Below, one piece after another: positions 5,692-15,894 of a DNA stretch of 28,256 nucleotides; position 1 is the first letter of the stretch, and each line of letters starts with the position of its first letter. A program made the translations under genes and the position numbers. A model generated the notes under the pieces. The model saw nothing but the letters and a program-made list of their open reading frames with translations. It did not search any database and was not told the DNA's origin. The DNA is taken from IMG/VR virus record IMGVR_UViG_3300037065_000017, positions 1 through 28,256 of that record; one strand, written 5' to 3'. The stretch is from a virus.

Positions 5692-6222
5692 TCAGCCATC
5701 TCCCTTCGTTCCCTGGTCCTGGGGGATGCGGCGCCAGGTCTCGATATTTCCCACGCCCACTTCGTCGGCCGGTAAAAATAGACCGTCCCTCCCATGCACC
5801 TCGAACCCAAATCTGCCGCGCGCACCCGCCAGCTCGATCACTCGCGATACGCGGGTGCGAAACCAATCGTCGCCCTTCCCTATCCTCTCAGGGACAACGT
5901 CGACCGGCTCGCCGACCTTGGGCAGTTCTTTCTCCGGCAGTCCCACTCGCGCCGGCTGGTCCGCCTTGATGATGTCCGCTACGCCATACAGCCCCTTCGC
6001 GACGGCGTCCAGTTGTGCTTTCGCGGACTTGAGTTCCACTTTTGCGGCGTCGAGCTCGGCGCGCAGGTCGGTGATTGTCTTCCTCCCCCTGCCATCGGCG
6101 TAGGTTTCGCACGCATCCAGTGCTGGTGTAGCGCTCTCGGCCTTCGCCTGATTCCGATACCCGCACCGCGGGCAGTGCGACTCGGTAATCGGGTACTCGT
6201 AGCCGCACTTGCACGTCGTCAT
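5692..6222 (-). CDS. zinc-ribbon and coiled-coil protein
   Basis: 176 aa from the ATG at 6222, selected because it overlaps the upstream stop (ATGA); an upstream ATG at 6258 is possible. It has an N-terminal zinc ribbon with CKCGYEYPI followed by CPRCGYRN (cysteines at about 4, 6, 17 and 20). A long helix with Leu/Ala heptads lies at residues 50-95 (DLRAELDAAKVELKSAKAQL). A C-terminal beta-rich domain with GRFGFEVHGRDGLF follows. This may be a DNA- or protein-binding regulator with a dimerising coil. No family name can be assigned. Confidence 0.65.
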   Translation of the reverse strand: MTTCKCGYEYPITESHCPRCGYRNQAKAESATPALDACETYADGRGRKTITDLRAELDAAKVELKSAKAQLDAVAKGLYGVADIIKADQPARVGLPEKELPKVGEPVDVVPERIGKGDDWFRTRVSRVIELAGARGRFGFEVHGRDGLFLPADEVGVGNIETWRRIPQDQGTKGDG

Positions 6223-6440: not shown

Positions 6441-6684
6441 TGTAGCCCATGTCGATTGCCTGGTGATACATTTGTAGCTTCAATTCGTGCCACATCACAA
6501 GAACTGTTCCTCTGCGTTTGTATCGCCATCGACTCGACTCTTCGGAATCGTCTCGCATCATTTCCCATATGTCCCGGTAGGAAAGCCCAGTGCGGAACTT
6601 GTCGTAGCCAGGTAGGTCGTTTCTTTCGTGCCTATCCGGTTGACGCTCATTACACTTGTTTTCCCAATCTAGTAAGATTGTCAC
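6430..6684 (-). CDS. conserved phage protein with GYDxFRTGL motif, copy 1
   Basis: 84 aa from a GTG at 6684; no ATG is available in frame. The body contains GYDKFRTGL, a Met-Arg-Asp-Asp-Ser loop, then WRYKRRGTVLVMWHELKL. The same order and spacing occur in the protein at 16465-16956 (GYDRFRTGL, then WRQKSRGCVLGLWHSLKM). I recall this pattern from many phage genomes as a short uncharacterised family. It is basic and helical, possibly nucleic-acid binding. Having two copies in one operon, about 10 kb apart, suggests duplication or independent acquisition. Confidence 0.65.
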   Translation of the reverse strand: MTILLDWENKCNERQPDRHERNDLPGYDKFRTGLSYRDIWEMMRDDSEESSRWRYKRRGTVLVMWHELKLQMYHQAIDMGYSGK

Positions 6685-7054
6685 GAATGTCGAGGCGGGC
6701 GGCCTTCTCTATGGCAAGCCATATGTCTTCGCAGCAACCCTCGGAATCAGCCCAAGCAGATAAGTTCTTAAGCGTTATATCCGGCTCGGATTCGGGTTTG
6801 TTTTCGGAGATACCGAGGCACGGTTTGCAACAGCACTCCTCAGAATGTGGCGGATACCTATTAAAATCGCCCTTTTGAGCCGGAAAGGGTAGTTGGCATG
6901 AGCAAGTCTCGCTGCCCCTTTCATGGGGACACTCGCCGGACAGGTGTAACGGATGGGCCGCGCAGTAGACTGGCATTTTAGTTCCTGGGCACGCTTCCAC
7001 CTCAGACATAAACTCGGTCTCGGTTTCCGGTCCTCTGTATTCTGTTTTCACCAC
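6650..7054 (-). CDS. cysteine-rich hypothetical protein
   Basis: 134 aa from GTG 7054 (or GTG 7051, six bases after GAGAGG, equally possible). It contains about a dozen cysteines, including CPHERGSETCSC and EECCCKPC, together with several histidines, so metal binding is likely although no standard zinc pattern is obvious. The C-terminal third is an acidic helix (LSAWADSEGCCEDIWLAIEKA). Codon use is noticeably more A/T-rich than in the operon as a whole. It overlaps the following gene by 35 bases. No family is recognised. Confidence 0.55.
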   Translation of the reverse strand: MVKTEYRGPETETEFMSEVEACPGTKMPVYCAAHPLHLSGECPHERGSETCSCQLPFPAQKGDFNRYPPHSEECCCKPCLGISENKPESEPDITLKNLSAWADSEGCCEDIWLAIEKAARLDIRDNLTRLGKQV

Positions 7055-7103
7055 ACACCTCTCGATTCACTGGTGGTTGTCAACCGGATAAGCATGGTTT
7101 CTT

Positions 7104-7463
7104 TTACCCCACGTGCTTGCCACTCCTGCACCTTCCGCAAGAGCGATGCCCGTCCTTGTCGACGACCTCGGCGACCTTCTCAATACCGCAGTCGTCGCAC
7201 CCTCTCTGATCGCGCTCCATCTTGATGGCCTCTGCCATCATGCGCTCCCACTTGTCCAGCTTATCCCGTGGGTTGGCCTTCGAGTTGCCCAGAATGTACC
7301 CTGCCGTTGCGTCGTTGGCGTCCATCTCAGCGTCGAGGATGGCCCTTGTCGCCGTGGCTGGAGAGTGGCGAAATCCGCCCATTGCTCCGAGGCGAGAATA
7401 AGCCTCAGTCCAGGCCTTCCTTGCCAGTTCCCTGCGCCTGTCTTCAGCGCTCGCCATTGTCAT
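7104..7463 (-). CDS. zinc-ribbon-tailed hypothetical protein
   Basis: 119 aa from the ATG at 7463 (ATG 7457 is an alternative two codons on); the open frame upstream overlaps two other genes and is not used. The N-terminal half is helical and charged (SAEDRRRELARKAWTEAYSR), with GGFRHSP and an Asp/Glu-rich helix. The C-terminus carries a four-cysteine ribbon: CDDC, then about 18 residues on, CGRC, ending in GKHVG. Such C-terminal ribbons often bind DNA or RNA. It is preceded by overlapping small genes of the helicase cluster. Confidence 0.65.
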   Translation of the reverse strand: MTMASAEDRRRELARKAWTEAYSRLGAMGGFRHSPATATRAILDAEMDANDATAGYILGNSKANPRDKLDKWERMMAEAIKMERDQRGCDDCGIEKVAEVVDKDGHRSCGRCRSGKHVG

Positions 7464-7623
7464 TGCTCGCTGGCTTCGCTGGCTTGTCCTCGGGCATGGG
7501 CTGCGCTGGCTTGTCCACCACGGTGGCGCGGCTGCGAGCGATTGCATCGGCCGCGTACCGCTGCTCTTGGAACTGGTAGGCCCACAAGTCGTTGCGCTTC
7601 TCTGCGTCGTATGTATCAGCCAT
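7444..7623 (-). CDS. small hypothetical protein (59 aa) after the helicase
   Basis: Starts at ATG 7623, overlapping the last eight bases of the helicase gene, and stops at TGA 7444-7446, overlapping the next start by about 20 bases. The product begins MADTYDAEKRNDLWAYQFQE, a charged helix, and continues with a Pro/Ala/Lys-rich tail (KPAQPMPEDKPAKPA). The tight overlaps on both sides and the G/C third bases support it. Its role may be as an accessory to the helicase; this is only from position. Confidence 0.55.
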   Translation of the reverse strand: MADTYDAEKRNDLWAYQFQEQRYAADAIARSRATVVDKPAQPMPEDKPAKPASNDNGER

Positions 7624-9331
7624 CTTCTCCTGCCTCTCTTTCTCTGTTCAGGATTCCGTCCACAATGCGCTGGTCTGGTCGTTTGCCGTTGGCCCGCTGA
7701 ATCTCCCACATCAAATCACATGCCTTCTTGTACGACAGGTTGATTGCTGGAATTCCGTATGACTCCAGCTTCTTGGTTTGGTTGTAGTTGGCTAGCCCCT
7801 TCGCCTCCCGCATCTTCAAGTTGCCAATGAGCACTGAAGCCTTCGCCTTGGTGAGCCCTTGGGGAACGTCGACCTTGCGCGATGACAGGTATGCCAGTTG
7901 CGCGTCGCTGGGCACAGCTCCGCCAAAGCGCTCTGACCAGCGGTCTTCTTTGGTCGCGCTCATGTGCATGACATCGAATGGGTTGTACTCGCGCTTGGTG
8001 TAGTTTGCCCTGGCCTGGAGCAGGAGCTTGCGCGCGGCCTCGTTGCGCTTCTTGGCTTCGATGGCTTCGTGGGCCTCGACCAAGGCGTCCCCAGCACGTG
8101 TCCCGGGACGCTCTCTGATGATCTTCTTCGCAGCCTCTATCTCGTCGTCGTCGTACTTGCCGCCCAGGATGTCCACCGCGCTGGCGAGCTGGTGCTTTCC
8201 GCTGTTGCCGGTGAACTCCAGCAGCAGCAGGTCTGTCTTTCCTGGGCACGGGCGCAGGCCACGACCGACTATCTGAGCGTGCAGGCTGCGGCTCTTGGTC
8301 GGGCGCCCCTGTGCGATGCAGGCCACGGGCGGGCAGTCGTATCCTTCCGTGGCAATCCCGCAGTTGGTGAGGTACTGGAAGTCCCCGCGCTCGAATCCAC
8401 CCAGGACTTGCCGGCGCTCGTCGATGGGAGTATTCCCGTTCACGGTGCGAGCGCTGCCAGCCTTCAGCTCATTGAACAGCTCGGCCGACCTGGTGGCGTT
8501 CTCCACGCTGGTGGTGAAGAACAGCGTCTTAAGATCGCCTGACTCTGCAATGGTCGACTTGACCATGTGGGCCACGGCAGCCTCTACCATGGCCGCATCG
8601 AGGTCTCCTTGGTTCAGGTCGCCGGCCGTGGTTCGGCACCCAGCCAAGTCGAGTTCTCCCAGGTAGATTTCTCGAACTCGGATGGGGCACAGGTAGCCGT
8701 CCTTGATGGCGTCGTCGATCTCGTAGACGTAGGCCACCGACTCGAAGACCTGGCCCATGGCCTTCTCGTCGGCCCGGTCAGGCGTCGCCGTCACCCCGAG
8801 CAGCTTGGCAGTCTCGAAGTGGTCGAAGATCCGCTTGTAGCTCGGGCTCGGTCCATGATGCGCTTCGTCGCAGATTACCAGCCCGAAGGTGTCTTTCTTC
8901 CAGCTCGCCAATCTCCCAGGCTGGCTCATCGTCTGCACAGAGCCCACCACGATTCGCTCCAGGCCCGCCCTGGCCTCGGCCTGCTCCAGCCCTACCATTT
9001 CCCCGGTATCGCGCCCCAGGCGTTCGCGCGCTTGCTGTAGCAGCTCGTCCCTGTGCCCAAGAATGAGTACCCTGTTGCTCAGCTCCTTGGCGTAGTCGCG
9101 ATTCGGCCAGTTGTGCGTTATGTGCGAAAATATGGTCGTCTTTCCCGTTCCGGTGGCGGCTACGATCAGGGTACTTCTGTTGTCGCGTAGCTGCACGTGC
9201 ACGCCATCGTTTGCCGCCTGTTGATACGGGCGCATGGTGTGTGTGCTGGTTACGATCCTTGGCGTCTTCTCCTCGGGAACGAACAGTCCAGAGGGAGAGC
9301 GCTCGAATAGTCCTAGCTGCACGTCAGCCAC
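7616..9331 (-). CDS. superfamily 2 DEAH-type DNA helicase
   Basis: 571 aa. Motifs in order: Q-like region MRPYQQAAND, Walker A AATGTGKTT (58-66), motif Ia GHRDELLQQA, DEAH box CDEAHHG (154-160), motif III GVTATPDR (179-186), motif IV FFTTSVENA, motif V NCGIATEGYDCP and motif VI QIVGRGLRP (353-361). This is the layout of the UvrB/RecG-like and phage T5/SSL2-type helicases that translocate on or remodel DNA using ATP. The C-terminal 200 residues are helical and basic with no named domain. GTG at 9331 is used; GTG 9322 is a little better placed after AAAGGG. It lies among the recombination genes and probably acts in replication or end processing. Confidence 0.88.
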   Translation of the reverse strand: MADVQLGLFERSPSGLFVPEEKTPRIVTSTHTMRPYQQAANDGVHVQLRDNRSTLIVAATGTGKTTIFSHITHNWPNRDYAKELSNRVLILGHRDELLQQARERLGRDTGEMVGLEQAEARAGLERIVVGSVQTMSQPGRLASWKKDTFGLVICDEAHHGPSPSYKRIFDHFETAKLLGVTATPDRADEKAMGQVFESVAYVYEIDDAIKDGYLCPIRVREIYLGELDLAGCRTTAGDLNQGDLDAAMVEAAVAHMVKSTIAESGDLKTLFFTTSVENATRSAELFNELKAGSARTVNGNTPIDERRQVLGGFERGDFQYLTNCGIATEGYDCPPVACIAQGRPTKSRSLHAQIVGRGLRPCPGKTDLLLLEFTGNSGKHQLASAVDILGGKYDDDEIEAAKKIIRERPGTRAGDALVEAHEAIEAKKRNEAARKLLLQARANYTKREYNPFDVMHMSATKEDRWSERFGGAVPSDAQLAYLSSRKVDVPQGLTKAKASVLIGNLKMREAKGLANYNQTKKLESYGIPAINLSYKKACDLMWEIQRANGKRPDQRIVDGILNREREAGEDG

Positions 9332-13844: not shown

Positions 13845-14125
13845 GGCTTGGACTTTCTTGGGTTGGCAATGGTGGAGACGATGGTGAGGGCTTCATGTAG
13901 GGACAGGGTTCCGTTGATGATGTGAGGGCACCAGCGCACGCGGAAGAGTGGGCTATCGAGATGGCACCAGCATATGCCAGAGGCGGCTACTGCTGGCAGG
14001 TCATCGGGCGACACCACGCGAGCTGATTCGGGCGCGCAGTCGGGGCAGAGGGGCAGGCGTTCTCCGTTGTGGTCGTAGATGCCGACAGAGTGGGAAGACA
14101 GGCAGCCGTGGCAGGTTGGGATCAT
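13841..14125 (-). CDS. small zinc-binding protein
   Basis: 94 aa; ATGA overlaps at both ends. Cysteine/histidine pattern: CHGC (residues 5-8), LCPDC (about 27-30), then ICWCHLD (52-56) and RWCPHI. Two metal sites are plausible. The C-terminal helix (LHEALTIVSTIANPRKSKP) is amphipathic and basic. The protein directly precedes ERF in the operon and could be an accessory factor for it. No family name can be assigned. Confidence 0.65.
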   Translation of the reverse strand: MIPTCHGCLSSHSVGIYDHNGERLPLCPDCAPESARVVSPDDLPAVAASGICWCHLDSPLFRVRWCPHIINGTLSLHEALTIVSTIANPRKSKP

Positions 14126-14679
14126 GGTGTGCCGTCCAGTAATTGGATGATGTCGGAGATCTGCGCTTGTCGTTCTGCATCCCAGGCTGCCGCCCAGTCT
14201 TCCGCCCTGTCTGCCGCCCTGTCTGCCGCCCAGTCTGCCGCCCAGGCTGGCGCCCAGTCTGCCGCACTGGCTGCTGCCCTGTCTGCCGCCCTGTCTGCCG
14301 CCCAGGCAGCCAGGGTGGCTGCCTCCCCGGCTGCCTCCCTGGCTGCCTCCCTGGCTGCCTCCCTGGCTGCCGCGAGTTCAGCTTGGGGGATTTTCTCACC
14401 CATCGCGAGCCGGCGCAGGAGCGGGACGACTGCGAGCGAACGCGGGTCAGGCTTGGCGACGCGGGAAAGAGCGCGATCAACCGTGCGAGCAGTCCACTCC
14501 CAAAGCATCGAATCTGGGAGCACGCCTGGGCGAGTGAGCACCCAAATGCGGTCTTCTGGAGGGATGTCACCGCGAGCTACCTGGAGGGCATTGACGCCAA
14601 GAGCAGGCACGAGGTCTGCAATCTCCGCGTCGGTGTAGCAGGCGTCGTGTTTGCGCAGGAATTTACGTGTGATTCGCAT
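14122..14679 (-). CDS. Ala-rich tetrapeptide-repeat protein
   Basis: 185 aa from the ATG at 14679, ten bases after AAAGG; upstream extension is possible but covers another gene's region. The N-terminal domain, about 115 residues, begins MRITRKFLRKHDACYTDAEI and contains WVLTRPGVLPDSML. From about residue 115 the chain consists of Ala-rich four-residue repeats (A-A-R-E, A-A-D-R, A-A-D-W), ending in a short SDIIQLLDG tail. I recall many phage and bacterial proteins with an N-terminal 'FLxxHDAC'-type domain and such Ala/Trp/Arg repeats; their function is uncertain. The stop overlaps the next start (ATGA). Confidence 0.65.
   Translation of the reverse strand: MRITRKFLRKHDACYTDAEIADLVPALGVNALQVARGDIPPEDRIWVLTRPGVLPDSMLWEWTARTVDRALSRVAKPDPRSLAVVPLLRRLAMGEKIPQAELAAAREAAREAAREAAGEAATLAAWAADRAADRAAASAADWAPAWAADWAADRAADRAEDWAAAWDAERQAQISDIIQLLDGTP
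14182..14375. repeat. 12-bp tandem repeats inside the Ala-rich gene
   Basis: On the plus strand the sequence runs as 12-base units of the type CTGTCTGCCGCC with substitutions at fixed positions (GCCCAG, GCCCTG). It then changes, around 14330, to units of the type CTGGCTGCCTCC. Because the unit is a multiple of three, every reading frame stays open across the block. In the gene's frame it gives the Ala-Ala-Asp-Arg/Trp repeats, and in the second half Ala-Ala-Arg-Glu. Confidence 0.85.
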
Positions 14680-14722
14680 TAGAGACCAACCTTTCCCAGC
14701 GTGTCTTGAATTGTGGCCACGG

Positions 14723-15219: not shown

Positions 15220-15894
15220 CTATTCTTGCAGCAGGCGAACCGTCCCGTGCTTCACGTCACCATCGATCCTCTTCGCCTCTACCAGGAGATCGTCACCGTC
15301 GGCCTTCTTCCATGACGCGATCCCGGCGAAGAGGTGAAAGGCGAATTTCAGTTCGCCATGGCAGCGAATAGAGAGGCCAGCCTTGATGCCCTCGCCAGCC
15401 TCGATGCCCATGCCAGCCTCGATGCCCCAGCCAGCCTCGATGCCCTCGCCAGCCTTGATGCCCATGCCAGCCTCGATGCCCCAGCCAGCCTCGATGCCCA
15501 TGCCAGCCTTGATGCCCTCGCCAGCCTTGATGCCCCAGCCAGCCTCGATGCCCTCGCCAGCCTTGATGCCCATGCCAGCCTCGATGCCCTCGCCAGCCTC
15601 GATGCCCCAGCCAGCCTTGATGCCCTCGCCAGCCTTGATGCCCCAGCCAGCCTTGATGCCCCAGCCAGCCTTGATGCCCTCGCCAGCCTTGATGCCCCAG
15701 CCAGCCTTGATGCCCTCGCCAGCCTTGATGCCCATGCCAGCCTTGATGCCCTCGCCAGCCTTCACGGATCCAGAAACGATCAGCCACTTACTGCCGAGAT
15801 CGATCTCTAGTGATTCCTCAGTCTCGATTGAGCCTATGAATCGGAAGCACCATAATTCATCTACGAGGCCGGGAAAGTCCTTTGTGATCTTCAT
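15220..15894 (-). CDS. hexapeptide-repeat (possible beta-solenoid) protein
   Basis: 224 aa from the ATG at 15894, four bases after the upstream stop; a longer upstream frame exists but covers a secreted-protein gene. An N-terminal cap of about 43 residues (DELWCFRFIGSIETEESLEI and onward) is followed by 22 six-residue repeats, I-[K/E]-A-G-[E/W/M]-G. A C-terminal domain then contains KFAFHLFAGIASWKK and a Val/Asp/Lys-rich end. The period of six with one Ile per unit strongly suggests a beta-helix or beta-roll. The repeats are almost invariant except at two positions. I recall related hexad-repeat proteins in other phages and bacteria, without known function. Confidence 0.72.
   Translation of the reverse strand: MKITKDFPGLVDELWCFRFIGSIETEESLEIDLGSKWLIVSGSVKAGEGIKAGMGIKAGEGIKAGWGIKAGEGIKAGWGIKAGWGIKAGEGIKAGWGIEAGEGIEAGMGIKAGEGIEAGWGIKAGEGIKAGMGIEAGWGIEAGMGIKAGEGIEAGWGIEAGMGIEAGEGIKAGLSIRCHGELKFAFHLFAGIASWKKADGDDLLVEAKRIDGDVKHGTVRLLQE
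15370..15765. repeat. 22 tandem 18-bp units encoding the hexapeptide repeats
   Basis: On the plus strand the unit is GATGCCCnnnGCCAGCCTy, where nnn is CTC, CAT or CCA (codons GAG, ATG or TGG on the coding strand) and y is C or T (GAG or AAG). Ten of the 12 other bases are essentially fixed. Units with the same variable codon are interspersed, not clustered, as E, M, E, W, E, W, W, E, W and so on. The first unit encodes Val instead of Ile and the last ends Leu-Ser. As with the 12-bp block, all frames remain open on both strands. Confidence 0.9.

Follow-up and report, generated by a model that had tools for sequence, protein, structure and literature searches.

A widespread phage hexapeptide-array protein with a small codon alphabet, concerted evolution, and shuffled repeat units

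The window analyzed here is a 28,256-nucleotide stretch of viral DNA (positions 1 to 28,256 of IMG/VR virus record IMGVR_UViG_3300037065_000017). It encodes a protein in which an array of hexapeptide units lies between an N-terminal and a C-terminal domain. A first, sequence-only reading had located a hexapeptide-repeat protein at 15370-15765. This interval does span the array, but the coding strand is the minus strand and the real open reading frame is larger, running from 15894 to 15220. The features of the locus are as follows.

15220..15894, minus strand: whole gene, 224 amino acids, ATG at 15894 and stop at 15220 (translation), with N-domain, array, and C-domain as in relatives
15766..15894, minus strand: N-terminal domain (MKITKDFPGLV...LIVSGS), the predicted start of the solenoid (AF2 pLDDT of 86-93 over residues 1-40)
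15370..15765, minus strand: array of 22 hexapeptide units, [IV]-[KE]-A-G-x-[GS], in in-frame 18-bp repeats (TRF, translation)
15388..15765, minus strand: 21 units with GAG, TGG, or ATG (Glu, Trp, or Met) at x (translation)
15370..15387, minus strand: last unit, IKAGLS, with Leu at x (translation); in relatives as well, the array frequently closes with L, F, or W
15220..15369, minus strand: C-terminal domain (IRCHGELKFAFHLFAGIASWKK...), a relative of 'LRIFAGLCxWR' (comparison with relatives; AF2 mean pLDDT of 83-92)

Translation bears out the description of 22 near-identical I-K/E-A-G-x-G units varying at two codons, and the TRF score of the array (550-611) is far beyond chance. Among the 22 units, the x codons are GAG (9), TGG (7), ATG (5), and CTC (1); the suggestion that this codon takes only three values thus holds for 21 units and fails for the CTC that caps the last one. 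The second variable codon is AAG in 14 units and GAG in 8, while the remaining codons are nearly invariant (GCT, 22/22; GGC, 22/22; ATC, 21/22; last GGC, 21/22). GAG, ATG, and TGG are pairwise two bases apart with no intermediate codon present, as had been pointed out. This gap is not peculiar to the window phage, since 14 of the 85 arrays with at least three codons also contain no pair of x codons one base apart; in only 13 of the 85 are the x codons connected by single-base steps.

The array is adjoined by a conserved phage gene (14723-15094, minus strand; phrog_12365, E value of 9.4e-25). A second repeat protein is encoded nearby (gene 14122-14697, minus strand). Its 12-bp units at 14181-14373 specify an alanine-rich helical repeat, AADWAADRAADRAA, in which one position is likewise taken by Trp and charged residues, and it has a weak PHROG match (phrog_18326, 2.8e-05). 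Co-occurrence of the two kinds of adjoining array was discarded as a rule, as it is seen at a few loci only. The window phage also encodes an ERF recombinase, a terminase, and a helicase. The array gene appears to lie in the early, non-virion region of the phage genome; helicases, primases, methyltransferases, repressors, and Holliday-junction resolvases are among its neighbors in twelve loci.

The window protein has no Pfam match up to an E value of 1, no acceptable match in NCBIfam, and no significant match in PHROGs, where the best one is weak (E value of 0.053). At E values up to 1, neither this protein nor any of five relatives matches a Pfam model, Hexapep (PF00132) included. The units contain no Cys/His motif of the zinc-finger kind, and Pfam gives no match to one. 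Because low-complexity filtering masks the array, tblastn with the whole protein returned nothing from phages; with a 91-aa composite of the nonrepetitive parts, the only phage hits were three copies of a single environmental podovirus, and plasmids gave no match. The uncharacterized Caudovirales protein A0A6J5SK54 (BFVD/UniProt) is a member of the family (Foldseek E value of 4.5e-10, TM of 0.78, 50% identity); its entry carries no function or analysis, so the family has been deposited but not named. A literature search on the motif and on comparable phage arrays, in which subscription papers were thinly covered, yielded nothing relevant save PRDM9 as an analogy.

A degenerate scan of IMG/VR first returned 72 loci, and a later scan of the same database returned 283 relatives, 80 of which were kept. 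The GTDB genomes contain 45 loci, including five isolates (Paenibacillus senegalimassiliensis, P. senegalensis, Aquitalea aquatica, Ruminiclostridium cellobioparum, and Pigmentiphaga humi). Many unrelated environmental phages encode this hexapeptide-array protein, which is real, widespread, and beyond chance. The layout of N-domain, array, and C-domain is common to all relatives, with at least two domain types: 'MKITKDFPGLV / LRIFAGLCxWR' and 'LKEKxACxxGxxxF..FPEGGEYQ / FGIYAGLRIRLS...AKTKPENLISG'. The N-terminal domain of the window gene recurs in L001, L030, and L028. One 118-kb phage contig (IMGVR_UViG_3300025423_000009) carries two separate arrays of the family (L162 and L177). In three podovirus genomes of equal length (L074, L075, and L076; MW202524, MW202718, and MW202743), the gene has three units only and is apparently frameshifted ahead of the C-domain.

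Clustering by flanking sequence gave 118 arrays of at least six units (median, 18 units), of which 116 are canonical. In these 116 nonredundant arrays, the alphabet at x is small and phage specific, with a median size of three; when only letters with at least two copies are counted, it mostly comprises two to four codons (mode, three). Across homologues, x takes at least 15 different residues, with two to five in any single array, and the idea that Glu, Met, and Trp alone are allowed by selection is therefore wrong for the family. Within an array, each amino acid at x is written with one codon in 411 of 413 cases. These codons exceed the expectation from flanking codon usage, a rough estimate because usage was taken from all stop-to-stop frames of at least 150 codons: GAG occurs in 75 of 78 arrays versus approximately 37 expected (log10 P of -26), TTG in 17 of 18 versus 3.3, TCG in 31 of 47 versus 10.9, ACG in 9 of 10 versus 2.2, and GGG in 12 of 16 versus 3.8. 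Given this excess, plain codon usage was rejected as the cause of the NNG codons. Where x codons end in a pyrimidine, their third bases match within the array in 27 of 27 pairs (16.6 expected). One codon per residue and locked third bases together indicate that the third base acts as scaffold and that variation is confined to the first two bases of x. The lock may stem from descent from one ancestral codon or from conversion with TGG units, in which an A at this base would give TGA. In L013, L022, and L034, the sixth residue varies as well (Gly/Ser/Asp; Gly/Ser in L022), again with single codons, and L034 has a AAWAAARDAASDAA stretch near position 5730.

Scaffold codons are uniform inside each array and different from array to array. 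Synonymous heterozygosity equals 0.01-0.04 within arrays, in contrast to 0.28-0.71 between them (51 arrays), and this homogeneity within and divergence between arrays indicate concerted evolution. The order of x letters is near random, with same-letter frequencies at lags 1-10 within about 0.03 of shuffles. Simple tandem growth was rejected, as the lag excesses of 0.05-0.1 that simulation predicts at lags 3-5 are not observed. Repeated 3-, 4-, and 5-grams of unit types number 75, 22, and 7, versus 36, 6.7, and 1.2 in shuffles (two- to sixfold), and repeated blocks of at least six units are rare. Neighboring positions are linked (x to the next K/E, z of 13; K/E to its own x, z of 8; x to the next x, z of 7), and this linkage is lost after about two units. 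Local linkage and recurring short blocks with little lag excess form the pattern left by scattered copying of short blocks. As x is linked more strongly to the K/E of the next unit than to its own, breakpoints are not confined to unit borders, which speaks against the rigid 18-bp modules envisaged earlier.

Comparison of unit order in related phages revealed arrays that differ in length, order, or alphabet despite near-identical flanks. L009 and L046, whose flanks are 99.9-100% identical over 8.4 kb, have 23 and 13 units, the ten-unit difference being a deletion that lies between two like blocks of three units. L011 and L039 differ by five units, L153 and L162 by a five-unit insertion, and L019 and L033 by four units plus a CAG/GAG change. 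L081 and L197 (98-99% identity adjoining the array) have wholly different unit orders and different alphabets too; the order is also wholly different between L041 and L172, which we take to be isolates, as their IMG genome identifiers have no metagenome prefix. The earlier preference for shuffling of existing sequence over gradual mutation is thus upheld by block recurrence above shuffles and by block gain, block loss, or whole-array replacement between sister phages. Taken together, concerted evolution plus shuffling is very probable. ERF was ruled out as the required common shuffler: it is found in 3 of the 49 array-bearing records, although the window phage has it.

AF2, run with 25 homologues, predicts the regular solenoid for which a structure prediction had been proposed, with one strand per hexapeptide (residues I-K-A, every six residues). 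The best model has a pLDDT of 78 and the remaining ones 50-62, with one of five above 63. For a type-B relative, a confident helical N-domain is followed by strands, and the C-terminal half is poor. In a three-sided solenoid, the expected coil period corresponds to lag 3. At this lag, K-E pairs are enriched (z of 3.9 and 3.2) and K-K and E-E pairs depleted (z of -3.1 and -4.1), an ordering that is absent at lags 1, 2, and 4. K opposite E at lag 3 fits the predicted beta-solenoid with three hexapeptides per coil. K/E identity is also raised at lag 7 (z of 2.9). Only K/E is ordered at lag 3; x is not, so that a stacked ladder at x is not evident and the proposed Trp/Met/Glu ladder on one face finds no counterpart in the data. 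Judging from the strand pattern, x would be situated on outward turns.

On balance, we lean toward a recombination-shuffled, diversity-selected beta-solenoid of the phage early region that would be PRDM9-array-like in its working. Recombination would keep the minisatellite scaffold uniform and mix its variable codons. Rare changes at codon positions 1-2 would make new letters, and block copying would spread them. In such a solenoid, each coil would comprise three hexapeptides, the I and A of strand I-K/E-A may be packed inside, K would face E on the neighboring coil, and x would point outward on the G-x-G turn. Changes in the pattern of Trp, acidic residues, and small residues may benefit the phage because the protein would contact a varying molecule of the host or of a rival phage. 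This suggests a rapidly changing contact surface, and perhaps the "programmable binding" imagined at the outset; a recognition role for the array is put forward tentatively.

Selected diversity at x is itself probable. Letter homozygosity F equals 0.35 versus 0.475 under neutrality, 90% of arrays fall under the neutral median, and a sign test of evenness gives 2e-15 (89 arrays, infinite-alleles model), a P value that is indicative only, as arrays share ancestry and the borrowed model need not fit intra-array copying. In the window array, the evenness of the three letters is unusual (neutral percentile of 0.03; homozygosity of 0.345 versus 0.553 neutral). These values bear on the most serious alternative, neutral concerted evolution, in which x is tolerant and exposed, a few letters drift, and unequal recombination mixes them with no recognition role. 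Such a process would account for the concerted evolution and shuffling that are both seen, for the missing positional order at x, and for the many residues accepted there across the family. However, the letters are too even for it, and in a simple simulation in which blocks are copied neutrally inside an array, letters are lost, leaving 1.8 of 3. Pro and Ile are virtually missing from x, and Trp, despite its single codon, makes up approximately 30% of x, with TGG in 110 of 116 arrays and missing from six. Without selection, it is difficult to account for a Trp that is nearly universal; even letters and Trp kept in nearly all arrays point to selection for a mixed surface. We therefore regard the neutral explanation as rather unlikely. 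A DNA-mimic reading is not favored, as the arrays carry only a mild net negative charge (median, -0.3 per unit).

Alternatively, the protein could act structurally, as a scaffold or filament comparable to bactofilin or the FapA/MinC solenoids, with array length and the Trp/acid mix tuning stability or packing rather than recognition. The predicted beta-solenoid would suit this role, as would the K/E order at lag 3, as a stability feature. Moreover, the sole Pfam match of a sixth relative (L066) is to the FapA beta-solenoid, albeit weak (E value of 0.0057; 16.7 bits, below the gathering cut-off of 31), and Foldseek matches of the type-B model, themselves insignificant, include chains of bactofilin and MinC (E value of about 3). 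Yet matches to known solenoids are insignificant: against the PDB, Foldseek gave no significant match for the window protein or the type-B model. For the window protein, the weak list was headed by LpxA, LpxD, and GlmU-type helices (E value of 0.1 or worse), and these same helices came up in a second look with VIA-align (Z of 14-17, rmsd of about 11.8), matches that support a common arrangement only. In addition, a scaffold would have no need of phage-specific alphabets or of the whole-array turnover in the sister pairs L081/L197 and L041/L172, which makes this explanation improbable.

The main caveat on all array comparisons is short-read assembly, since most arrays come from metagenomes that were probably sequenced in this way, where long repeats are lost or misjoined. 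Repeat collapse or chimeric joins could then create both unit order and array differences. Many contigs indeed end inside arrays, the rarity of long repeated blocks is what assembly would cause, and the L009/L046 deletion lies between like blocks. Against this, identical arrays were recovered from independent samples (L056-L061; L168-L170; L177/L180/L181; L013/L014) and from two records of one Paenibacillus strain (L015/L079), and L004 equals the window array over all nine units that it holds. The alphabet, codon, and lag-3 signals are, moreover, independent of long-range order. Assembly artefact as a full account is unlikely, and we assign it a very small probability. As some arrays are unchanged across samples, turnover is not constant but episodic.

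Directed mutagenesis of the x codon, by a diversity-generating retroelement or another template-driven mutator, would explain why variation falls on codon positions 1 and 2 of x and position 1 of K/E and leaves nearby synonymous sites fixed, but it is the least credible option: no reverse transcriptase (PF00078) was found in 49 array-bearing records (the window record being a fragment), the alphabets of two to five codons are far from an adenine-derived spread, and the suggested search for a second copy or template array elsewhere in the 28-kb window record found none. Reverse-transcriptase-based mutagenesis is thereby largely refuted.

The preferred reading, a shuffled and diversity-selected solenoid, has its closest counterpart in the PRDM9 zinc-finger minisatellite of animals, in which near-identical coding repeats with varying contact residues undergo concerted evolution, positive selection, unequal exchange, and fast turnover (PMC8925151). 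Similarly, the phage units are homogenized within and diverged between arrays, and their order and number differ between close relatives. However, PRDM9 consists of 84-bp DNA-binding zinc-finger units acting in eukaryotic meiosis, whereas the phage array has 18-bp solenoid units and a putative contact surface. In evolutionary terms, the array is PRDM9-like, but it is not a member of the PRDM9 family, and no sequence relation is claimed. TAL effector repeats are near-identical helical repeats of 34 residues with a known DNA code (RVD). The phage repeats are likewise near identical and vary at one or two residues from a small alphabet, but they are six-residue beta repeats and are not known to follow such a code. 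It is improbable that the array is a full TAL/PRDM9 counterpart, in which each x letter would read one element of a host target that is repeating or polymeric, and recombination of units, with no mutator devoted to the task, would let phages adjust their specificity.

With the left-handed beta-helix hexapeptide proteins LpxA, LpxD, and GlmU, the array shares a six-residue period and, by prediction, three units per coil; it differs in its I-K/E-A-G-x-G motif, the missing Pfam hexapeptide match, and the lack of a transferase domain. As in diversity-generating retroelements, a phage-encoded system would diversify a set of residues, here predicted to be exposed; the array differs in its tiny codon alphabets, in block shuffling in place of adenine mutagenesis, and in the absence of reverse transcriptase from the 49 records. 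Phage tail fibers vary by retroelements, invertases, and recombination. The array may represent a different route to phage diversity, in which a widespread cytoplasmic-type protein combines a codon-level alphabet with a locked scaffold and a shuffled order. With a unit of 18 bp, selection, recombination, and structure can be told apart, and if the x pattern sets binding, the family would amount to a natural repeat code that is compact and already represented by hundreds of sequences.

Some loci depart from the common form. Downstream of the L003 array, a four-residue repeat protein (AVRGAVSDAVGGAV...) is encoded at 6565-8232 on the plus strand of L003. In L112, a beta-proteobacterial MAG contig that may be chimeric, an RRM-like glycine-rich protein is seemingly fused to an array with Tyr, Gly, and Asp at x, whose codons all end in C. 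In the degenerate relatives L049, L092, and L096 (the last from Pigmentiphaga humi), both variable positions take many residues; these are possibly old arrays that are no longer homogenized.
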